A DNA stretch of 64,000 bases from Methanolobus tindarius DSM 2278. Lineage in GTDB: Archaea > Halobacteriota > Methanosarcinia > Methanosarcinales > Methanosarcinaceae. Below, in pieces: positions 6,690 through 35,050 of this stretch (the first letter of the stretch is position 1; each line of letters begins with the position of its first letter). The position numbers and the translations under genes were made by a program. The notes under the pieces are model-generated. The model was not told the origin of the DNA. It ran no database searches and worked only from the letters and a program-made list of their open reading frames with translations. Location of the stretch: assembly GCF_000504205.1 (NCBI RefSeq), contig NZ_AZAJ01000001.1, positions 1,896,879-1,960,878 of the forward strand, written 5' to 3'.

Positions 6690-7007
6690 GTGGACGATTC
6701 AGAAAAGATCGAGGCTTTAAGTATGGATGGCAGTCCCATTGAAGTTGGTTCTGTTGTTAGATACCTGAACACAGGTACTGTGGGAATAGTTACCGATCTT
6801 ACTAAAGATGAAGAAGGTGTCTGGGTATTACTTGACAGTACCGGCTTGTTCTATAAGCCGGAGGTACTTGTCATTACAGATGAAAGTGAACTAAAAGGTG
6901 AAATGAAAGAGCGCACCTCTGCAGAGGCTGCAGAATCTTATATGCGTTCTTATAATGCCGAAAATGAGGCTGGTTATGATATCGGCCAGGTAACAGGCGG
7001 TGGCTAA
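6690..7007 (+). CDS. DUF2098 family protein
   Basis: 105 residues from a GTG at 6690; TTAAGGAGTT at 6674-6683 is the ribosome site that selects it. The sequence GSVVRYLNTGTVGIVTDL followed by WVLLDSTGLFYKPEVL matches a small methanogen-specific family (DUF2098) that looks like a compact beta-barrel. The function is unknown. Its place behind mptA suggests, but does not show, a link to pterin metabolism. Confidence 0.8.
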   Translation: MDDSEKIEALSMDGSPIEVGSVVRYLNTGTVGIVTDLTKDEEGVWVLLDSTGLFYKPEVLVITDESELKGEMKERTSAEAAESYMRSYNAENEAGYDIGQVTGGG

Positions 7008-24370: not shown

Positions 24371-25441
24371 TTACTCTTCGCTTACCTCTTCCTCAAGTTC
24401 AGGAGCATGGCTCATAGGTCCGTGTTCTCCTCCATGTCCATGTGGCTGAGGGTTGTTTTCCCTGTATTCTTCCAGAATCTCTTTGAGCTCGTCAAGTGTT
24501 GTTGCACTTTCGATATCTGCAAGAAGATCTTCAAGCTCAGTCATTTGCTCTTCTATTGAGTCTGATGTGATGTTCTCATCTTCTATCTCATCGATATTGT
24601 CAAGCATTTCCTGAAGCATTTCAAGTCTCTTGTTTATCGATTCTGTTTGTCTTTCTACAAGGAACTCCATTTCCTCTTCGTCTGAATCAAATTCCATTTT
24701 CTCCATTTCCGGTTTTTCACCCTTTTCAGGCTTGTTTTCCATCATGGATTCTCTGGCTGCTTCCAGAACTTCTTTGAGCTCATCAAGAGTTGTTGCACTT
24801 TCGATGTTTTCAAGAAGCTCCTCAAGTCCGGCTATCTGCTCTTCTATTTCTGCCTGCTCCTCTTCATCTTCAGTTTCTGCAAGCTTTTCGTCAAGCATTT
24901 CTATTCTTTTAGTGATGTGTTCAGTTTCTCTTTCTACAAGATATGCCATTTCTTCATCATCTGAAGCGAACTCCATATCTTCCATTTCCGGTCTTTCACC
25001 CTTTACCGGATTCTCCGTCATCATAGATTCTCTGGCTGTTTCCAGTATTTCTTTTAGTTCATCAAGTGTTTCTGCACTTTCAATGTCTTCAAGAAGCTCC
25101 TCGAGTTCAGCTATCTGCTCTTCTATTTCTGCCTGCTCTTCTTCATCTTCAGTTTCTGCAAGCTTTTCATTTAGCATTTCGATTCTTTTGGTGATGTGTT
25201 CAGTCTCTTTTTCTACAAGGAACTCCATCTCTTCTTCTTCGCTGTCAAAGACTGGTGCTTCCATGTCCTCGTCTCCCATTTCAGGAGCTCCTCCAGGACC
25301 GTGCATCATCTTATGATCACCGAATTCTTTCGCTTCATCGGCTGTTCCTGTTTCATCGGCAAAGGCACCTGGTGTTATAGCACCTAACACCATTGCTGCC
25401 AATGAAATACAGGCCAGTACTTTCAGGATTTTGTGTTTCAT
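24371..25441 (-). CDS. Exported acidic coiled-coil protein with three tandem repeats
   Basis: 356 residues from ATG 25441 (AAAGGAGAA upstream; the earlier in-frame ATG at 25489 would break the signal peptide MKHKILKVLACISLAAMVLG). Three repeats of about 85-90 residues follow, each with EEEMEFLVE / ETEHITKRIEML, KLAETEDEEEQAEIEEQIA and ESATTLDELKEILE. The third copy has a different central part. The end is His/Gly-rich (PHGHGGEHGPMSH). Strongly acidic helices suggest cation binding or a filament-like role, but there is no direct evidence. Confidence 0.78.
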   Translation of the reverse strand: MKHKILKVLACISLAAMVLGAITPGAFADETGTADEAKEFGDHKMMHGPGGAPEMGDEDMEAPVFDSEEEEMEFLVEKETEHITKRIEMLNEKLAETEDEEEQAEIEEQIAELEELLEDIESAETLDELKEILETARESMMTENPVKGERPEMEDMEFASDDEEMAYLVERETEHITKRIEMLDEKLAETEDEEEQAEIEEQIAGLEELLENIESATTLDELKEVLEAARESMMENKPEKGEKPEMEKMEFDSDEEEMEFLVERQTESINKRLEMLQEMLDNIDEIEDENITSDSIEEQMTELEDLLADIESATTLDELKEILEEYRENNPQPHGHGGEHGPMSHAPELEEEVSEE

Positions 25442-26217
25442 TGTTTCTGATTCTCCTTTTTTCTCTGCCCTGCCAGATAATTTCCTCAATTATTGGCGTG
25501 CTTCTGACATTTTCCAGATTTGCAGGCTTAAATATAAGGATACTTAATAAAAAGAAGCTCAATTATGGCTTTAAATTGAAAAATAAAACTTCCATAAAGG
25601 TTTATTATCAAAGAGAACCTTTGAAACACTTAAAATTAATAAGTATGTTTAATTTTTTCTATAGGACATAGCTAATGTGTCTGCAGGAATCTGTATGATA
25701 GAATTCTCTGGCAGAAAAAAGAATTTCTGTATTTCCCAGATATTATCAGTTTTTTCTGTCAGTCCATGTTTGTTCAATCTCAATTGGGATAGGGTAATAA
25801 GTTTTTGAAATTTTCAGATAATCAATAAAATGCCAGGTTCATTTCATAATTATTTCTATCATTATTTCGATATGGTTCTTTTATTCATTTCTCTTCAGAA
25901 ATTATTATATCAAGCAATTTCACAATATCTCTAAAATATCTCTGTTCTGATTAAAAAGATAATTTATTAGCTATTATCTATTTTTAGCTATTAATATAGT
26001 TTTAAATTTGTTTTTCATTGTCAAAAAAGCTTCATAAAGCTTAAAATGCCACTTTATTGCTTACTATTTTTCAGAAAATCTCTTTCCTTTTAAGTATGTT
26101 TATATTTTAATCTCCCAATTCAGAGTGTAATTCAAAAAACGTCAAGGTGCATTATACTATGTTAAATATGCTATATAGAATACCACAACAGGAGAATAAC
26201 CAGATGAGGTGATATCC
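25442..26217. other. Long AT-rich spacer with promoter for the first duplicated module
   Basis: 776 bp without a supportable gene. It is extremely AT-rich. It contains the promoter of the minus-strand repeat protein near 25500 and, at 26091-26110, the shared element TAAGTATG plus TATA tract placed before 26218. A plus-strand open frame at 25393-25671 overlaps the antisense of the repeat gene and has no ribosome site. Confidence 0.5.
26091..26110 (+). promoter_or_regulatory. Promoter with shared TAAGTATG element (copy 1)
   Basis: TAAGTATG directly abuts a TATA-like tract (TTTATATTTTAA). The same TAAGTATG-TATA arrangement recurs at 28227 and 31165, followed in all three by a nearby AATT-type stretch. 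It probably drives the 26218-27966 gene pair. Confidence 0.5.
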
Positions 26218-27117
26218 GTGAAGAAGTTACCACTTATAATACTGGGTATTCTCATACTGATGGTATTGATATCAGGTCTGTCAGATTCTGACAGGCATTC
26301 AGGCAAGGAAGGTCCCAAAATGTCTTCCGGCCAGCCAGGATATATCAATAAAGAATTATATGAAGAGGTGCCCTCTTCTATTTCAGAAGAAAAACTGAAG
26401 CCACAGGATGAAAATGAATTTCTGGAAGATAATATACAGAAATCCGATGAAATAATTCTTCGTCTTGAAGACTCAATAGAACGTCTGGAAACGGAAGGAA
26501 ATGATGTGAGCGATCTTGAGGAAATGGTAGCAGATTATTCATCACTTGTTTCAGATGCCGGTTCATATCTTGAAAAGGCAGACAGTGCTGATTCAGTTTC
26601 AGAGGAAAGGAAATACGTTGAATTATCCAAAGAAAATATGGTTCAGTCAGATATCTTATTGAAAAAGATATTTGTGGCAATGCATAACTATATGCCGGGA
26701 CCTGTTGAACTTGAAGGAAATGAAAGTCTGGACGCAAGTGGAAGCGGAGTAATGATTCTCACCGGTGATCTGGATGTAAATCTCAGCATGTCTTCAGGAA
26801 AGTTCTCTGTAGTAGACTTTGAAGGAGATATGTCCGTAGACACAGATGGCTTAATGAATCTGAATATGGTAACCGAATCCGCAGTATCAACTTCAGTGAG
26901 TGAGGATCTTCATCATATGATATCATATGTGGATGTTCAGGGCAACGTTAGCCTCTCAGGTTCAGGAATGACAATCGCTGTGATGGGTGACAATACCACT
27001 CTCCATGTAACAGGTGTTGGAGAAATCCAGCTCTATGGTAATGGTAATTATTATCTGGATGATTCCGGTTCAATAAAGGAAGGAGTCTGGTTAGCACCTA
27101 TATTTGAAACCGTATGA
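26218..27117 (+). CDS. Exported protein, first copy of duplicated module (A1)
   Basis: 299 residues from the GTG at 26218 (GAGGTGAT precedes it; the 29-kb paralogue starts with the same MKK). Signal/anchor KKLPLIILGILILMVLISGL, then a helical part (about 65-155, FLEDNIQKSDEIILRLEDSIERLE) and a beta-rich part (about 160-299) with GSGVMILTGDLDV and DFEGDMSVDTDG, a polymer-like beta-helix pattern. About half the residues align with the 28970-29899 protein. Unknown function; outside-facing. It is followed 36 bp later by a membrane-bound winged-helix gene. Confidence 0.75.
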   Translation: MKKLPLIILGILILMVLISGLSDSDRHSGKEGPKMSSGQPGYINKELYEEVPSSISEEKLKPQDENEFLEDNIQKSDEIILRLEDSIERLETEGNDVSDLEEMVADYSSLVSDAGSYLEKADSADSVSEERKYVELSKENMVQSDILLKKIFVAMHNYMPGPVELEGNESLDASGSGVMILTGDLDVNLSMSSGKFSVVDFEGDMSVDTDGLMNLNMVTESAVSTSVSEDLHHMISYVDVQGNVSLSGSGMTIAVMGDNTTLHVTGVGEIQLYGNGNYYLDDSGSIKEGVWLAPIFETV

Positions 27118-27153
27118 CAATGAAATAAAACCACCTCTGGATGGTAGTGTAAC

Positions 27154-27966
27154 ATGAAAGTGACATCCTGTGCAGGTTGCATCACCATCCTTCTTCTTCT
27201 TCTTTTGTCTCCAATCGCTGCTGCAGAGGACACTGCAACAGTTCACGGAGTGGCTTATGACTGGAGTACTCTTGCTCCTCTTGATAACGTTGTAATTGAA
27301 GTAAATTCCACACCTGTGCAATCTATGGTTGCAAAATACGGGATGTATTCTTTTGAGCTTCCACAAGGGAGTTATTGTGTCACTGCAAGTTATTACGTAA
27401 ATGGCGATCTCATCTGCTATGATGAGGAAAACATTACGATTGCAGACGAAGGAAATTATGTTGTTGACCTTCTTCTTGTTCCTTCATATTCGGATGAAAC
27501 TAATGACACAGAAGAAACCGTTAGCTCCACTCCTTCACTTTCTTCCTCTAGCCTTTTGATAGTATTTGGTATCATCATTTTGATACTGCTTCTTTCAATC
27601 ATTTTCAAGATACGAAGTCCCGAGGAAAAAGATATTGTAAAGAAAAAACCGGATGATGTTTTTAATATTCATGTAAACAAGACAGATAAAGCTCATTCAG
27701 CTCCTGTCACTTCAAAAGATAAAGTTCCATACAATAAAATGCCGTCACAGCAAGCATTAGTAAATTTGAGTTCTGAGCACCTGGAAATACTGGATATTAT
27801 TCGTTCAGCCGGTGGAACTATGCCGCAAAAAGAATTACGTAAACACCTGAGTTACTCTGAAGGTAAGGCAAGTGTAATGATTTTGGAACTCGAAAAAAAA
27901 GGTCTTATAAAGAAAGTGAAAAAAGGCCGTGGTAATCTCCTCTTTCTAACAGGAATGGAAGTTTGA
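27154..27966 (+). CDS. Membrane-anchored winged-helix protein (B1)
   Basis: 270 residues. Signal peptide (residues 1-24), an exported beta domain starting ATVHGVAYDWSTLAPLDNVVIEV (carboxypeptidase-regulatory-like, about 28-112), one transmembrane helix (about 132-150, LLIVFGIIILILLLSIIF), a basic linker, and a C-terminal wHTH (about 205-268: EILDIIRSAGGTMPQKELRKHL, then SYSEGKASVMILELEKKGLI). This places an outside sensor and a cytoplasmic DNA-binding domain on one chain. Its paralogue at 29938-30903 follows the paralogue of A1. The ligand and targets are unknown; self-regulation of the module is plausible. Confidence 0.85.
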   Translation: MKVTSCAGCITILLLLLLSPIAAAEDTATVHGVAYDWSTLAPLDNVVIEVNSTPVQSMVAKYGMYSFELPQGSYCVTASYYVNGDLICYDEENITIADEGNYVVDLLLVPSYSDETNDTEETVSSTPSLSSSSLLIVFGIIILILLLSIIFKIRSPEEKDIVKKKPDDVFNIHVNKTDKAHSAPVTSKDKVPYNKMPSQQALVNLSSEHLEILDIIRSAGGTMPQKELRKHLSYSEGKASVMILELEKKGLIKKVKKGRGNLLFLTGMEV

Positions 27967-28078: not shown

Positions 28079-28226
28079 TATTACCACTATTAAAGAGGGG
28101 GTATGTGCTCTTTGAAGGTTTCAGGTAGCTCTGATAAGTGTTAAAAGCTCTATTTACATTTTTTTTTCAATTAGATGTGGCTATAAAGTATTAATGTCCA
28201 TATTTTATGAATAATCCTTTTTCTTG

Positions 28227-28247
28227 TAAGTATGCTTTTATTTAAAA
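28227..28247 (+). promoter_or_regulatory. Promoter with shared TAAGTATG element (copy 2)
   Basis: TAAGTATG joined to CTTTTATTTAAAA, the same unit as at 31165 and similar to 26091. A start about 25 nt downstream would open the folded leader at 28252-28406. Confidence 0.6.
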
Positions 28248-28251
28248 TTAC

Positions 28252-28406
28252 CAATTGGTGAATTGCCCGACAACTAATACGTTGGAGGGTACCACCCCAC
28301 TTAGGTGGCACCTAACCCCCAACCACATCCAGCCTAAGGTGCCACCACTGTACCAACAACCCCCTCCTCGCTTAAGAGGTGCCCATCCTATCCGGGGCAT
28401 CTCTTA
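28252..28406 (+). ncRNA. Structured leader RNA, copy 1
   Basis: Pairs read by eye: P1 CAAC/GTTG (28271-28274, 28281-28284); P2 GGT-CCACC/GGTGG-ACC (28288-28296, 28304-28312); P3 GGTGGCACCT/AGGTGCCACC (28304-28313, 28337-28346), which competes with P2 for the same strand; P4 AAGAGGTGCCC/GGGCATCTCTT (28374-28384, 28395-28405). The P3 loop CCCCAACCACATCCAGCCT and the P4 loop core CTATCCG are identical in copy 2 while the stems differ with compensating changes. The P4 arm ends 7 nt before the ATG at 28413. Confidence 0.6.
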
Positions 28407-28412
28407 ATCGAT

Positions 28413-28673
28413 ATGAGTAAAAAGGTGAATATTTTGTCTGATATGAAAGATACCTTAAAGGAATTCATTGACTCAAGGCTTCAGGAAGCAACCCGTGCCC
28501 AGGCCATTTATCCCGACAGGGTATATGTTGCATCCGGTTTTATAAGGCAGCTTAATTCTGAAAAGCTCCGCAAGTCTTCTGAGCCATCCTCATGTGATCC
28601 TGGCTTTAAGGACAATGATGCTTTCAGATCCCACTCCGACAGTGTGTCAGCAAAAAAGGATTTCATGTGGTGA
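28413..28673 (+). CDS. Small protein behind leader RNA copy 1
   Basis: 86 residues, MSKKVNILSDMKDTLKEFID start, Lys/Glu-rich, no signal peptide or known domain. The GFIRQLNSEKLRKS segment loosely resembles SLCRKLNPEQMSRL in the 31373 small protein that follows leader copy 2. No Shine-Dalgarno separates it from the P4 hairpin, so translation may be controlled by the leader or begin from a reinitiation event. Function unknown. Confidence 0.6.
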   Translation: MSKKVNILSDMKDTLKEFIDSRLQEATRAQAIYPDRVYVASGFIRQLNSEKLRKSSEPSSCDPGFKDNDAFRSHSDSVSAKKDFMW

Positions 28674-28674
28674 T

Positions 28675-28842
28675 TTATTTCTTCTTTGCTTTGCTTAATC
28701 CTTGCTTGTTTTTTATTGTCTTGCGGCCATTTTCTGCTTTGTCGGCCCGAGGCATATTTTCTTTTAAAAATTTTAGTACTTCATATGCTTTGTTTTGTCC
28801 TTCTTTCGTCTGTTTATTCAATTTCTCTGGCAATTGGTTCAC
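28675..28842 (-). CDS. Possible 55-residue basic small protein
   Basis: Minus-strand open frame with a GTG at 28842; the product would be MNQLPEKLNKQTKEGQNKAY and so on, lysine-rich and hydrophilic, ending KAKKK. It is convergent with the 28413 gene with one base between stops. A TATA-like ATTTATATAAAT lies only about 15-20 nt upstream, so a leaderless mRNA would be needed. The AT-rich DNA could also give this frame by chance. Confidence 0.35.
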   Translation of the reverse strand: MNQLPEKLNKQTKEGQNKAYEVLKFLKENMPRADKAENGRKTIKNKQGLSKAKKK

Positions 28843-28969
28843 AACTATTTATTTATATAAATAAAATCAATTAAAACAGAGAAAACGTTTAAGGCACATG
28901 ATATCTGTTACCTTTGTAAAATCGGAGATACGTAGTTATAGTTAATTGCTCCTGAAGATGTGATCATCA

Positions 28970-29899
28970 ATGAAAAAAATGCCTCTTACAGTATTAATTA
29001 TCCTTATGTTAATGGTTGTAATTTCAGGTTTGGCTGATTCTGATGATGTTTTTCCATATCCGGACAACAGGCCGGATTCAGATTACAGGCCAGATGATCA
29101 CAGAGATGGTCCCATGCCTCCTTTGGACAGGGATTCTTCTCCTGTAGAAGTTTTCATGGTAACGCATATGTTTTCTTCATATCAGGTAGTGGACGAAGAA
29201 AGCTTCCTAGAAGATAATATAGATAAATCCGAGTCAATGGTCCGAAGGCTTGAAAATGCAAGCAAGGAACTGGAAACAAAAGGAGAAAATGTTTCCCGGC
29301 TTAAAAGTATGATTGGCAGCTATTCTGATCTTGTATCTGAATCCAGGTCTTCTCTTGAAATGGCAAAGACTTCCTCTTCAGAATCTGAAAAGCAGGAATA
29401 TCTGGCAGAGTCCCGAAAAAGTATCATAAAGGCAAATTCAGAGCTTAAACCAATACTGGATGAAATTAAGAAATATCTGCAAGGTCCGGTTGTTTTTACA
29501 AACGCAACACTGAGTTCACAAGGAAGTGGTGCTGCTATTCTATCAGGCGACCTTGACCTGAGTTTCTTCCTGTCAGACGGTAAATTCTCAGTAGTTGACT
29601 TTAGTGGTGACCTTGTAATAGATACAGAGGCTGATTACAAGCAGGAGTTTGCTCCTGAAAGAGATGGGTCACCTGATCTGATAATGCCGCATTCAATGGT
29701 ATCATATCGTGATGTAACCGGAAATGTTTCGATGTCCGGTTCAGCTTACACGGTTGCTATTATGGCAGACAGGATAGTTCTGACCGCAAACGGTAATGGT
29801 GAAGCAGAACTTGTAGGAAATGGTACTTATTATCTTGATAGTGATGTCTTTGAAGGAAAAGAAAATGTATGGATGACTCCAATATTTGAGAGTGATTAA
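28970..29899 (+). CDS. Exported protein, second copy of duplicated module (A2)
   Basis: 309 residues. MKKMPLTVLIILMLMVVISGLAD is the signal/anchor, followed by an acidic proline-rich segment, a helical part beginning EESFLEDNIDKSESMVRRLE and a beta-rich part with GSGAAILSGDLDL and DFSGDLVIDTEAD. It is clearly paralogous to 26218-27117 along its whole length. It lies 38 bp before B2. Function unknown; outside the membrane. Confidence 0.77.
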   Translation: MKKMPLTVLIILMLMVVISGLADSDDVFPYPDNRPDSDYRPDDHRDGPMPPLDRDSSPVEVFMVTHMFSSYQVVDEESFLEDNIDKSESMVRRLENASKELETKGENVSRLKSMIGSYSDLVSESRSSLEMAKTSSSESEKQEYLAESRKSIIKANSELKPILDEIKKYLQGPVVFTNATLSSQGSGAAILSGDLDLSFFLSDGKFSVVDFSGDLVIDTEADYKQEFAPERDGSPDLIMPHSMVSYRDVTGNVSMSGSAYTVAIMADRIVLTANGNGEAELVGNGTYYLDSDVFEGKENVWMTPIFESD

Positions 29900-29937
29900 T
29901 ATTGGGGAAAGGTTCAGGAATGACAGGGTTGCGTAAC

Positions 29938-30903
29938 ATGAAACCAGTATATCTAATTTGCTTTATTGCAATTATCCTGATGCTGACAGGTGTTGGATCT
30001 GCAGCTAATATTGCAACTGTGCATGGCGTAGCCTATGAATGGAGTACATTTGAACCTCTTGATAATGCTATTATTGAGGTGAATTCAACACCAACACAAT
30101 CAATGGTGGCTCAGTATGGAGTCTACTCCTTTGAACTTGCAAATGGTACATACATGATTACTGCAAGTTATTATGAGGACGATCAGCTTACTTATTATGC
30201 AGAGGATATAATCACAGTTTCTGAGGAAGGAAGCTATGTTCTTGATCTGTTACTGGTGCCTTCCTATTCAAGTTCCAATGAAACCGAGTCTGAAGTTTCC
30301 AATATCGAAAGTTCATCAGGTACCAACAGTAATTCTCTTGTTTATGGTTCTATACTGGTAATTGTTATTCTTCTTGTTCTTCTTATATCCCAGATGAAAC
30401 AAAAGCCTCAGTCTACCAAACATGCCGTAAAGAAGGAACAAGCTCATCAAGTTACTGCAGAAGTTCCTTCAGAAATTGAAGTAAAACCTGTTCAACAAGA
30501 GGAAAAAGCAGCGGCATTTGAAATCGAAACTTCAAGTCCGACAGTTGTAGTACAGGAAACACGTGAATTTGCAGAACTTTTGCCAGAGGCTGAGGAACCA
30601 GTGGAAGAAGTAACTTCTTCTGCCATAAAAACTGAATCAGTTCCTGAAGAGCCCGAATCTGTGTCCGCACCAACTCAGGAACCGGATATTTCTAACGAAC
30701 CCGTTCCCGCTGACCTTCAGGAAATACTGGATATACTGAAATCCCAGGGTGGAAGAATGACGCAGAAAGATATGCGTAAGCGCCTGAAGTACTCAGAAGG
30801 AAAGGTAAGTCTTATGCTTCTTGATCTTGAGAAGAGGGGCAAGATCCAGAAATTCAAGAAAGGACGTGGAAATGTTCTTTTCCTTGTGGAATCTGAAAAA
30901 TAA
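29938..30903 (+). CDS. Membrane-anchored winged-helix protein (B2)
   Basis: About 322 residues from the ATG at 29938, chosen because GTAAC-ATG-AAA matches the B1 start and gives a clean signal peptide; ATG 29920 and TTG 29902 are alternatives. Same architecture as B1: ATVHGVAYEWSTFEPLDNAIIEV outer domain, one membrane helix (about 148-165 of the long form), and a C-terminal wHTH (EILDILKSQGGRMTQKDMRKRL). It differs by a long acidic, glutamate/proline-rich cytoplasmic linker of about 90 residues. Likely a one-component membrane-bound regulator. Confidence 0.85.
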   Translation: MKPVYLICFIAIILMLTGVGSAANIATVHGVAYEWSTFEPLDNAIIEVNSTPTQSMVAQYGVYSFELANGTYMITASYYEDDQLTYYAEDIITVSEEGSYVLDLLLVPSYSSSNETESEVSNIESSSGTNSNSLVYGSILVIVILLVLLISQMKQKPQSTKHAVKKEQAHQVTAEVPSEIEVKPVQQEEKAAAFEIETSSPTVVVQETREFAELLPEAEEPVEEVTSSAIKTESVPEEPESVSAPTQEPDISNEPVPADLQEILDILKSQGGRMTQKDMRKRLKYSEGKVSLMLLDLEKRGKIQKFKKGRGNVLFLVESEK

Positions 30904-30912
30904 TATCATTTT

Positions 30913-30971
30913 ATCAGGGTAATCTAAAGGATAGTTTTAAGGATATAATTATCCTCACTTATTACTCTGAT
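30913..30971 (+). terminator. Hairpin after B2
   Basis: ATCAGGGTAAT (30913-30923) pairs with ATTACTCTGAT (30961-30971) with a single G-U, enclosing the palindrome AGGATATAATTATCCT, and is followed by a T-rich CATGTTTTTTG tract. It probably ends the A2-B2 transcript. Confidence 0.55.
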
Positions 30972-31164
30972 ATCTCATGTTTTTTGTAATTTTAATCCTA
31001 ACTATCTTTTATGTGTAATATTCATTTTTATCTCTTTTAAACAGGATTAATGGCGTTATATATTTGTGATAAGTTTTTTAATATTCTATAAATCGTTTAT
31101 TTTCTATTATAATCTCTATAAAGCTTCATTGGTTAATTATGGGGATTTTCGACTCTTTTTGAAA

Positions 31165-31185
31165 TAAGTATGCTTTTATTTAAAA
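31165..31185 (+). promoter_or_regulatory. Promoter with shared TAAGTATG element (copy 3)
   Basis: TAAGTATGCTTTTATTTAAA is identical over the element and TATA tract to the promoter at 28227. It should start the second folded leader. Confidence 0.6.
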
Positions 31186-31189
31186 CTGC

Positions 31190-31350
31190 TAATTTGGGGA
31201 TTGCTTGTCAGCAGTGAGCTGACAGGTAACCACCCAAGCTAAGGTGGCACCAACCCCAACCACATCCAGCCTGGTGCCACCAATGTACCAACAACCAACA
31301 ACCCCCACTCGTGTAAGAGACACCTGCTACCTATCCGTCAGGTGTCTCTT
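31190..31350 (+). ncRNA. Structured leader RNA, copy 2
   Basis: P1 TGTCAGC/GCTGACA (31206-31212, 31218-31224); P2 GGT-CCACC/GGTGG-ACC (31225-31234, 31243-31251); P3 GGTGGCACCA/TGGTGCCACC (31243-31252, 31272-31281), competing with P2; P4 AAGAGACACCTG/CAGGTGTCTCTT, 12 perfect pairs (31315-31326, 31339-31350). The loops match copy 1. P3's last pair is A-T here and T-A in copy 1; P4 differs in both arms yet pairs in both copies. It precedes a 58-codon ORF that has its own AGAGG site. Confidence 0.62.
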
Positions 31351-31372
31351 ATCCGATACAGAGGCATGAATT

Positions 31373-31549
31373 ATGAACACCAATAACATGCAGATTATGT
31401 TTGAAGAGAAAACTACCGGCGGTTCTGCTGAACAGAAAGGAACAAACGGACATGAAAATGCAGTTGATTCTCTGTGCAGAAAACTGAATCCAGAACAGAT
31501 GAGCCGTTTGATCAGAATCTCCCCCATAATCCATATGGGGAAAAGGTAA
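31373..31549 (+). CDS. Small protein behind leader RNA copy 2
   Basis: 58 residues (MNTNNMQIMFEEKTTGGSAE start) with CAGAGG at 31360-31365. It has a SLCRKLNPEQMSRLIRISP tail that loosely resembles the 28413 protein. No membrane segment or known domain. It sits where the second module copy ends and about 100 bp before the ABC transporter gene, so it may be the first gene of that transcript. Confidence 0.5.
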   Translation: MNTNNMQIMFEEKTTGGSAEQKGTNGHENAVDSLCRKLNPEQMSRLIRISPIIHMGKR

Positions 31550-31650: not shown

Positions 31651-32406
31651 ATGGACGAGAATCTCAATAATACTGAACAAGAAAAACAGCCGCAAAATGG
31701 CACTCCTGACACTCTCATGCGTCTGACAGACGTGTGGAAGATCTACAAAATGGGAGAAGTCGAGTTTGCGGCATTAAAAGGTATTGATCTGGAGATCCTG
31801 CATGGTGAATTTGTAGTCATACTTGGTCCAAGTGGAAGCGGTAAGAGTACAATGATGAACCTGCTGGGCTGCCTTGATCTTCCAAGCAAGGGAGTTGTTG
31901 AACTCAACAACAAGGATATTTCCAAAATGAAAGAATCCGAACTTGCCCAGATCAGAGGTCAGCTAATTGGATTCATTTTCCAGACTTTCAACCTGCTTCC
32001 TACATTGAACACCATCGAAAATGTGATGCTACCTCTTGAATTCCAGGAAGCAAATCCGGATGAATCGTGGAAAAGAGCAGAGCAGCTTCTTGATATAGTG
32101 AGTCTTGGAAATAAAAAATACAATCTTCCTTCACAGTTATCAGGAGGACAAAGGCAGAGGGTTGCTATTGCAAGATCTCTTGCAGTAGACCCTAAAGTAA
32201 TACTTGCTGACGAACCAACTGGTAATCTCGATAGTGAAACGGGAAATTATATTCTTGAGTTCCTAAGTGATCTTCACAAGAGAGAAGGTAAGACTATCAT
32301 TATGATAACCCACGATCCTGAATTAACGAAATATGCAGATCGTGTTGTTCACATCAAAGACGGATTGGTCGATAATATAGAGATAATAAAGCATGAAGCA
32401 ATGTGA
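31651..32406 (+). CDS. MacB/LolD-type ABC transporter ATPase
   Basis: 251 residues from ATG 31651 (GAGGT upstream); the open frame extends 59 codons further up but without homology. Walker A GPSGSGKST, Q-loop FIFQTFNLLPTLNT, signature LSGGQRQRVAIARSL, Walker B VILADEPTGNLD and H-loop MITHD are all present. This subfamily powers MacB/FtsX-like permeases in mechanotransmission or export rather than classical import. It is followed 5 bp later by a surface protein and then a MacB permease. Confidence 0.93.
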   Translation: MDENLNNTEQEKQPQNGTPDTLMRLTDVWKIYKMGEVEFAALKGIDLEILHGEFVVILGPSGSGKSTMMNLLGCLDLPSKGVVELNNKDISKMKESELAQIRGQLIGFIFQTFNLLPTLNTIENVMLPLEFQEANPDESWKRAEQLLDIVSLGNKKYNLPSQLSGGQRQRVAIARSLAVDPKVILADEPTGNLDSETGNYILEFLSDLHKREGKTIIMITHDPELTKYADRVVHIKDGLVDNIEIIKHEAM

Positions 32407-32411
32407 TAAAA

Positions 32412-33794
32412 ATGAAAAAAATCCTATTATTAATGTTAGTTTTGCTGTTGCCATTAACAAATATAGCAGCAGCAGGTATGAACGCCGGGGCTTCAGGGGT
32501 GAATGTAGACCTTATGTCACAGAGTCCCTATCCTGCAAGACCTGGTGAAACAGTAGAATTAACAGTAAGCCTCCAGAACGAGGGAAGCAATGATCTTTCT
32601 GATGTAACAGTTACTATCGATGCCGACTATCCTTTTTCACAGGTATCCGGTGAATCATTGTCCAAGACAGTATCCTACATGGAAGCCCGTCAGGACGAGG
32701 ATGATGCAACTTATCTTAAATTCAAGTTGAAAGTTGATTCTGATGTTTCAGATGGAACTTATGATGTAGATGTAATAGTAAAGGACAGTGAGTCCGATTC
32801 AAGTTCAGTAACAACCCTTGAAGTTGAAGTACAGGGTAAGGAATACGCACAGATTGTTACAATAAGTGATTCCAGCATAGATGTTGCAACTGTGGAACCC
32901 CTTGAGTTTGTCATAACCAACACAGGTTCATCTCCACTCAAGAATATGGAAATCTCATGGGATGAATCCACAGGTGTAATACTTCCGGTATACTCATCCA
33001 ACACCAAGTACATAACTTACCTAGGAGTCAACGATTCAGCCACAGTTGTTTATTCTGTAATGGCTGATGTGAATGCGGATCCGGGACTTTACCAGCTCGA
33101 TATTACTCTTGAATTCCAGGATTACAACTCTAACACTACAACAATAGAAACAAAGGCCGGAATGTTTGTGGGAGGAACCACTGACTTTGACCTGAGTTAC
33201 TCAGAAAGTGATGAAGGAGAAGTTTCACTATCCCTTGCAAATGTGGGTAATAATGAGGCTTACTCTGTGAAGGTATCCATACCGGAACAGGACAATTTCC
33301 AGGCATCAGGAAGTACATCTACAATTGTAGGTAACCTTGAGAAAGGTGACTATACAATCACGTCATTCACTATAAGCCAGACCAGTTCAATGCCGTCTAT
33401 GGGTGAAGATTCTGATGATGGAACTGCCAGTGCAGAACCAGGTGAGATGACAGAAGAAGACATGGCAGCCATGCAGGAAGAAATGGAAGCAAAGACTGAG
33501 CTTCTTGTCAACATCGAATACACAGACTCTGCAGGTCAGAGACACACTGTGGAAAAGGCAGTTCAGATCGAGGAATTGACCGGTGGCACAATGGCAGCTG
33601 GAATGTCCGGTGGACCAGGAGGTCAGAGTTCATCATCTAACAGCTACCTGTTGTACGGTGCAGTTGTACTTATAGTAGTATTTGTAGGATTCAATTACAG
33701 AAAGAAGAAGATGATGAAAGAAGGCAACTATGTTCCACTCAACGTAGAGCTTAAGAATCTCAAGGCTAAGATATTGAAGAAGGAAAAGCAATGA
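32412..33794 (+). CDS. Membrane-anchored surface protein with CARDB-like Ig domains
   Basis: 460 residues from ATG 32412. Signal peptide MKKILLLMLVLLLPLTNIAAA, then repeated beta-sandwich domains typical of archaeal S-layer/COG1361 proteins (GETVELTVSLQNEGSNDLSDVTVTI and similar later), a transmembrane helix near residues 410-428 (YLLYGAVVLIVVFVGFNY) and a basic cytoplasmic tail. It lies between the ATPase and permease genes and overlaps the permease by 4 bp, so it is probably the outside partner of that ABC unit. Confidence 0.85.
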   Translation: MKKILLLMLVLLLPLTNIAAAGMNAGASGVNVDLMSQSPYPARPGETVELTVSLQNEGSNDLSDVTVTIDADYPFSQVSGESLSKTVSYMEARQDEDDATYLKFKLKVDSDVSDGTYDVDVIVKDSESDSSSVTTLEVEVQGKEYAQIVTISDSSIDVATVEPLEFVITNTGSSPLKNMEISWDESTGVILPVYSSNTKYITYLGVNDSATVVYSVMADVNADPGLYQLDITLEFQDYNSNTTTIETKAGMFVGGTTDFDLSYSESDEGEVSLSLANVGNNEAYSVKVSIPEQDNFQASGSTSTIVGNLEKGDYTITSFTISQTSSMPSMGEDSDDGTASAEPGEMTEEDMAAMQEEMEAKTELLVNIEYTDSAGQRHTVEKAVQIEELTGGTMAAGMSGGPGGQSSSSNSYLLYGAVVLIVVFVGFNYRKKKMMKEGNYVPLNVELKNLKAKILKKEKQ

Positions 33795-35050
33795 GGCGCA
33801 GTACCTATATCAAGCTCGCTACTAACATCCTGGTTCACAGTAAGATCAGAAGCTGGCTCACTATAATAGGTATCGTCATAGGTGTAGGATCAGTTGTCAC
33901 AATCATGGCACTGAGTGATAGTATGGCTGCAGATATGGAAGAACAATTTGCAGATATGGACCTTACATTGATTCAGGTAACTCCTGGTTATTCCCATGCA
34001 TCTGCAGGAGGGCCAGGAGGAGGTCCGCCTGGATCCGGTGGTTCAACTAGCTCATCTTCCTCATCTGATGACGATGATCCCGAGTTGACCAAAAAGGACA
34101 TACAGGCCCTGAAAGCGGTTAGCAACATAGATTACATCTATGGAGAGATATCCGGTAGTGACCTGGAAGTGTATTTCATGGGTGAAACTGCGGATCTTTC
34201 GGTGACAGGAGTCGATAGTCAGGTATGGCAGTACACCGTAACCTATGACCTGGAATCCGGCAGATTGCTGGATGCCTCTGATGCTAACGTTGTGGTCATA
34301 GGATATGGTATAGCTCATGACATGTTTGACGATGAAGTAGGCCTTAACCGTGTGCTAACCATTGAAGGCAAATCTTACAGGGTCGTAGGTATACTGGCAG
34401 AAGATGAAGATGACAATTCAATTTTCATGCCGATAGATGCAGCAGTCGAAATCGTTGAAGACGCAGAAGATGATGTATATGATACCATTGTAGTCAAGGC
34501 ATCTGATGTAGATTACGTTGAAACAGTTGTTGATGACATCGAAGAACGCCTGATGTTGTCAAGAGGTATCATGGACGAAGATGACAGGGACTTCTCTGTT
34601 TCAGATTCATTATCACGGGCAGAATCTGCCAGTGAGATGATGGAGTCCATGACAATATTCCTGGGAGCCATAGCAGGAGTTTCACTTCTTGTAGGTTCTG
34701 TGGGTATTGCAAATACGATGTTCACATCAGTAATGGAAAAAACCAAGGAAATAGGAACAATGAAGGCTATAGGTGCTAAGAACAGAGATATTCTAATGAT
34801 ATTCCTGTTCAACTCTGCACTGGTAGGCTTTGTAGGAGGTGTGCTGGGCATATTGCTAAGTCTTGTGCTGACCATGCTGATGCCGTACCTTGGAATTTCC
34901 ATGATGCGTTCATCCATGGGTATGACCGTTGCTCCATATCTGATGGTGCTGGGTGTATCCATTGCGATATTCATTGGAGTGTTGTCAGGTATCATACCGG
35001 CATACAATGCTTCGAAGATGAAGCCGGTTGACGCGCTGAGATACGAATAA
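33791..35050 (+). CDS. MacB-like ABC transporter permease
   Basis: 419 residues. One N-terminal transmembrane helix (WLTIIGIVIGVGSVVTIMAL), a large outside MacB periplasmic-core-like domain with a Gly/Ser/Asp-rich low-complexity insert near residues 75-100, and three C-terminal helices with the FtsX signature region (GSVGIANTMFTSVMEKTKEIGTMKAIGA, described in parts). With the ATPase and the surface protein it forms a three-gene transport/mechanical unit. Substrate unknown. Confidence 0.92.
   Translation: MRRSTYIKLATNILVHSKIRSWLTIIGIVIGVGSVVTIMALSDSMAADMEEQFADMDLTLIQVTPGYSHASAGGPGGGPPGSGGSTSSSSSSDDDDPELTKKDIQALKAVSNIDYIYGEISGSDLEVYFMGETADLSVTGVDSQVWQYTVTYDLESGRLLDASDANVVVIGYGIAHDMFDDEVGLNRVLTIEGKSYRVVGILAEDEDDNSIFMPIDAAVEIVEDAEDDVYDTIVVKASDVDYVETVVDDIEERLMLSRGIMDEDDRDFSVSDSLSRAESASEMMESMTIFLGAIAGVSLLVGSVGIANTMFTSVMEKTKEIGTMKAIGAKNRDILMIFLFNSALVGFVGGVLGILLSLVLTMLMPYLGISMMRSSMGMTVAPYLMVLGVSIAIFIGVLSGIIPAYNASKMKPVDALRYE

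Follow-up and report, generated by a model that had tools for sequence, protein, structure and literature searches.

Only a few archaeal cis-regulatory RNAs with a defined structure are known, and none has been described for the present lineage in the literature searched. In bacteria, TRAP-type leaders present repeated short single-stranded triplets, GAG/UAG, as a binding array. Archaeal regulation through a protein-bound 5' UTR is exemplified by L7Ae, which regulates its own synthesis through a k-turn in the 5' UTR (PMC5539422). Here we describe a leader RNA of Methanolobus tindarius DSM 2278, present twice in the 64,000-nucleotide stretch that was analysed (the window, G000:C1:1896879-1960878) of a 3.15 Mb genome. 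Like the L7Ae leaders (PMC5539422) it is a structured archaeal 5' UTR that is probably read by a protein. However, it differs from them in its A/C-rich strands, in the lack of a k-turn by inspection and in the occurrence of several operons under one promoter. The k-turn is a three-nucleotide bulge followed by tandem G-A pairs, whereas inspection of the first helix (P1) in copy-1-type leaders reveals tandem G-A/A-G mismatches and no bulge. With the riboswitches of Rfam 15 the leader shares a conserved structure upstream of transport genes, but the Methanolobus leaders lack a supported switch and come in two unrelated architectures with common loop words. The resemblance to TRAP-type leaders, an analogy only, lies in repeated single-stranded triplets that may form a binding array; the Methanolobus triplets are ACC/CCA instead of GAG/UAG and the host is an archaeon.

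Searches against Rfam 15 (4227 families) did not yield a match to the leader: the window at gathering threshold gives only a tRNA elsewhere, and the leader loci searched at E<=5 give nothing on the leaders. This agrees with the sequence-only reading, which recognized no known riboswitch class. The element is also not described in the freely accessible literature on archaeal leader motifs that was searched. The leader forms a new family within a familiar type of RNA, and its regulon-wide organisation in two architectures is unusual. A leader family with strong covariation, a defined promoter, few target operons and two architectures that have loop words in common provides a direct handle, as RNA bait or in reporter fusions, on envelope coordination in methylotrophic methanogens. 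It could also show whether array-type RNA-binding regulators operate in archaea.

Both copies are located on the + strand, copy 1 at 28264..28411 (its start placed by the distance from the TATA element) and copy 2 at 31200..31356, as defined by alignment, covariance model and covariation. The duplicated structured leader RNA is thus found where the sequence-only reading had placed it. In leader 1, P1 stands at the inferred 5' end (28265-28274 with 28281-28290, span 28265..28290), P3 encloses CCCCAACCACATCCAGCC (28304-28312 with 28338-28346, span 28304..28346) and P4 consists of 28368-28370 with 28409-28411 and 28372-28384 with 28395-28407 (span 28368..28411), all on the + strand. The same helices of leader 2, also on +, are P1 at 31203-31212/31218-31227, P3 at 31243-31251/31273-31281 and P4 at 31309-31311/31354-31356 and 31313-31325/31340-31352. 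Predicted folding energies are -54.4 kcal/mol for leader 1 and -60.6 kcal/mol for leader 2 (z = -6.1 and -7.6), values which none of 300 dinucleotide shuffles equals for either leader. The window contains two occurrences of the 19-mer CCCCAACCACATCCAGCCT, whereas 100 shuffles contain none. P4 strands read AAGAGGTGCCC/GGGCATCTCTT in one copy and AAGAGACACCTG/CAGGTGTCTCTT in the other, with the compensating changes that had been claimed for them, and P3 is, as described earlier, 10 bp long and ends T-A in one copy and A-T in the other. Conservation of the loops holds in part: CCCCAACCACATCCAGCC is identical in both copies, but the P4 loop CTATCC, also taken as conserved, is missing from some homologues in the alignment (e.g. 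copy 1 of L033, copy 1 of L034, and L037). The loop sequences CAACCACATCCAGCC and TACCAACAACC are among the most conserved alignment columns. The spacers vary in length. Unpaired letters between P1 and P4 are 47% C, 33% A and 5% G.

Covariation was analysed in a first set of 27 aligned leader copies from 14 Methanolobus genomes, with P1, P3 and P4 imposed. Standard pairs fill 95.5% of the cells of the three helices, compared with 90.1% in shuffled alignments, and sliding the partners by 1-3 columns lowers pairing to 37-46%. Double changes are seen at 16 of the 35 helix pairs; shuffles give 8.0, and none of 500 reaches 16. P1 carries double changes at 7/10 pairs with 87% of its cells paired, P3 at 3/9 and P4 at 6/16. 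Homologues exist, and pairing is kept in 99.2% of the P3 cells and 98.6% of the P4 cells. P1, P3 and P4 are thus supported by covariation among the 27 homologues, and the covarying stems of the sequence-only reading are borne out. The non-Watson-Crick helix cells comprise 82 G-T against 7 A-C, a wobble bias which identifies + as the transcribed strand of the leader. A simple double-change filter is passed by 7/35 structure pairs and by 25/8088 other column pairs; since pairs outside the structure pass it too, the split into copy-1 and copy-2 subfamilies contributes to the signal. A ranking of column pairs by APC, uncorrected for phylogeny, has no more than 4 structure pairs among its first 20 and was discarded as uninformative because the same split dominates it. 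The covariation support is real, yet partly carried by this deep subfamily split. Independent support for the structure is given by distant copies: in an alignment of 23 diverse copies P3 and P4 are retained, and 11/18 predicted pairs are doubly changed. Such compensatory conservation of helices on the transcribed strand is that of a structured cis-regulatory leader RNA.

DNA search of 60 relatives reveals the tandem leader pair in most of the closest genomes, and near-identical leaders are present in records of Methanolobus profundi, M. vulcani, M. bombayensis and M. psychrotolerans. The first covariance model found further copies, most at E values of 1e-5 to 1e-11. Of the 186 genomes from the order, 24 have matches to a broader model (about 40 copies in three genera of one family), with E values down to 1e-34. 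Antisense matches of the covariance model were rejected as palindromic shadows of P4. In genus g25 (L089 at ~6760-6887 and L090 at ~6840-6982; G094) P3 is lacking or reduced, and the ABC operon is preceded by the gene of a small protein from a different family, about 45 aa long, KKYGFKNYDVLDKRQLNLLLWNM. In another genus, a 4.2-Mb genome (G036) has at L053 8705-9010 the same TAAGTATGCTTTTATT-like promoter followed by large hairpins and the same ABC operon; these hairpins have no covariance-model match and are a possible remote relative of the leader.

In homologues the leader is situated between a promoter and a coding region. Upstream of nearly all copies (36 aligned upstream regions) are elements resembling TATAAAGCTTCATT and TAAGTATGCTTTTATTTAAA. 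For leader 1 these are the upstream box TATAAAGTATTAA, a form of TATAAAGCTTCATT, at 28182..28194 and the promoter TAAGTATGCTTTTATTTAAA at 28227..28246 (0 mismatches), and for leader 2 the box AAAGCTTCAT at 31120..31129 and the promoter at 31165..31184 (0 mismatches), all on +. The 20-bp promoter element has 6 sites in the genome at <=1 mismatch and none in a simulated genome of equal size; matches with 2-3 mismatches are at chance level when genome and simulation are compared. The six sites precede the two window leaders, the A1-B1 genes (26091..26110, +, 1 mismatch), a divergent gene (25527..25546, -, 1 mismatch) and two distant loci. Leaders are present at four of them, two of the window type and two of a second architecture. 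This points to the leader belonging to a regulon of cell-envelope operons under one promoter. The duplicated-leader picture of the earlier reading was right about the leaders and missed both this wider regulon and the second architecture. The divergent gene under this promoter element (24371-25489, minus strand) encodes a secreted-type protein that is rich in Glu and contains three long internal repeats.

The unit A-B-leader-S is duplicated in the window, as the gene order in tblastn shows. A1, signal-peptide-like, and B1, in which inspection shows one TM segment and Pfam a winged helix at the C-terminus (DUF7343 6.9e-13, MarR 3.9e-6), occupy 26209..27966 (+), and their paralogues A2 and B2 occupy 28970..30903 (+; DUF7343 3.6e-17). 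Leader 1 is followed by the small ORF S1 (28443..28673, +, 76 aa from MKDTLKEF) and leader 2 by its paralogue S2 (31373..31549, +, 58 aa, motif KLxPEQMxRLxxISP). Behind leader 2 lies a MacB-like ABC operon of an ATPase, a COG1361-like exoprotein and a MacB_PCD/FtsX permease (31651..35050, +), assigned by Pfam and conserved order. Leader-bearing Methanolobus genomes keep the order A-B-leader-small ORF, with the MacB-like operon after the last unit; five of them have one leader copy and one A-B pair, and most others carry two A-B-leader-S units. Homology across copies extends to the small ORFs, which are under modest purifying selection (pooled pN/pS 0.49, 0.49 and 0.22, the value being 0.49 for both S1 and S2). 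Some genomes (e.g. G019) have shortened small ORFs or lack them, so that the RNA is better conserved than the peptide. B1 and B2 resemble transmembrane transcription regulators (PMC10269533) in combining a membrane segment with a winged-helix domain, whereas their link to the regulon promoter is drawn from position only.

At the two distant promoter loci a different leader is present, which lacks P3 and P4 and instead has one long outer stem; the loop that it encloses is A/C-rich and bears a small hairpin. A model of this second architecture finds 19 good copies in Methanolobus genomes, which precede DUF4405 genes or VTC-DUF4956-Cthe_2159 operons (the full operon being read in the window's own genome only), and the outer stem covaries. 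Four leader pairs were compared in the window's genome. The DUF4405 leader and window leader 2 have the 17-nt ATGTACCAACAACCAAC in common, a length which 1/500 shuffles reaches; two pairs have only 8-9 nt in common, reached in 175/500 and 82/500 shuffles. For the VTC leader the common stretch is no longer than these 8-9 nt and is not significant. In G106, a genome of another genus, two first-architecture leaders stand before other genes, one for a secreted-type protein with Lcl_C and one for a membrane protein with DUF4405. The leader before DUF4405 genes is thus of the first architecture in G106 and of the second in Methanolobus, an indication that both architectures serve the same job.

Our analysis therefore describes a conserved RNA, structured on the + strand, behind a regulon-specific promoter and ahead of small ORFs and envelope operons, with A/C-rich words in both architectures. 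The explanation that we favour, and hold to be about evenly balanced, is a cis-acting 5'-leader of an envelope regulon, in which the helices expose ACC-rich single strands for recognition by a trans-acting factor that is probably a protein. Transcription would start at the foot of the first helix, leaving the 5' end capped by a stem, since this helix begins close to the start site expected downstream of the TATA element. The helices would then hold the ACC/CCA-rich, almost G-free strands single-stranded, and binding of the factor, most likely an RNA-binding protein, may set translation or stability of the operons jointly. These strands are the probable recognised part because their sequence is conserved where the stems vary and a word recurs in a different fold. 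This pattern suits a single-strand-reading protein better than it does a small ligand, for which a fixed tertiary core is needed. The AAAGCTT/TAAGTAT promoter may control transcription of the same set, perhaps via the membrane-anchored winged-helix B proteins encoded nearby. A more tentative proposal is an undescribed archaeal post-transcriptional regulon, in which two leader classes of different structure, both with one promoter type, would offer the same ACC/CCA-rich words to a single putative RNA-binding regulator coordinating the envelope operons.

The A/C richness may, however, only keep the leader unfolded, which counts against the protein-read leader. The main rival, which we regard as rather unlikely, is a passive 5' stabiliser, where a helix at the inferred +1 and the stems shield the mRNA from 5' decay and the A/C spacer is merely unfolded, with no ligand or partner. 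It agrees with the first helix beginning at the expected start site in both architectures and with the long 5' UTRs documented in the genus: in Methanolobus psychrophilus 51% of 5' UTRs exceed 50 nt, and a contribution to mRNA stability in the cold has been reported for the mtaA and mtaC 5' UTRs of a cold-adaptive methanogen (PMC5378194). However, a pure stabiliser needs no conserved loop sequence, while here loops are among the most conserved columns and a word is common to both architectures. That the element is only DNA, an operator or repeat whose RNA folding is incidental, is highly improbable; the upstream AAAGCTT and TAAGTAT are DNA elements, but helix covariation and the strand asymmetry of the wobble pairs need an RNA, and the latter contradicts a DNA-only element.

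A riboswitch of a new class that senses a metabolite or an ion, alternating between P2 and P3 or between P4 and the ribosome-binding site, would suit the compact covarying helices, the conserved loops and the location before transport genes, and P2 can form in 32/34 homologues. The sequence-only reading had likewise proposed two mutually exclusive pairings. However, P3 is backed by covariation, whereas P2 is only a possible pairing: it shows no double change in 27 sequences, is 5.0-6.3 kcal/mol worse than P3 and is predicted to pair with a probability of <=0.0002, and two homologues (L038 and L041) have lost it but retain P3. The P2/P3 switch is therefore not supported, and two alternative folds, both conserved, as in a riboswitch, are not found. 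Sequestration of the Shine-Dalgarno site, also as an RNA thermometer, was rejected, its mean unpaired fraction being 0.32 against 0.27 with loops shuffled, with no excess occlusion. Together with the variable spacers, a second architecture devoid of P3 and P4 and the missing Rfam match, this makes a riboswitch unlikely. Still more doubtful is a target or source of antisense or trans-acting sRNA, in which the C-rich, G-poor loops pair with G-rich RNA or a released leader binds G-rich Shine-Dalgarno sites. Such sites are often predicted to pair with C tracts of the leader, but this is what base composition gives, and all Methanolobus copies examined have an ORF immediately downstream of the leader.

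A search of the genome for the ACC-repeat pattern gave just one other C-rich stretch, without promoter. The C/A-rich stretch TACCACCAATCCTATCCAACCACCCAACCACCCAACCACC, flanked by GCGAACGGG/CCCGTTCGC at G000:C1:2533635-2533674 on the minus strand (L112), upstream of a PHP-like gene, resembles another A/C-loop hairpin without the regulon promoter. In G106 a fumarate-reductase-like flavoprotein gene follows the DUF4405 gene, and an 11-codon ORF, MKIMGCTYYSK, with a GGTG site lies directly after P4 of both leaders (L088, minus strand, about 10480-10445 and 7842-7805), its copies differing by a synonymous TGT/TGC change.
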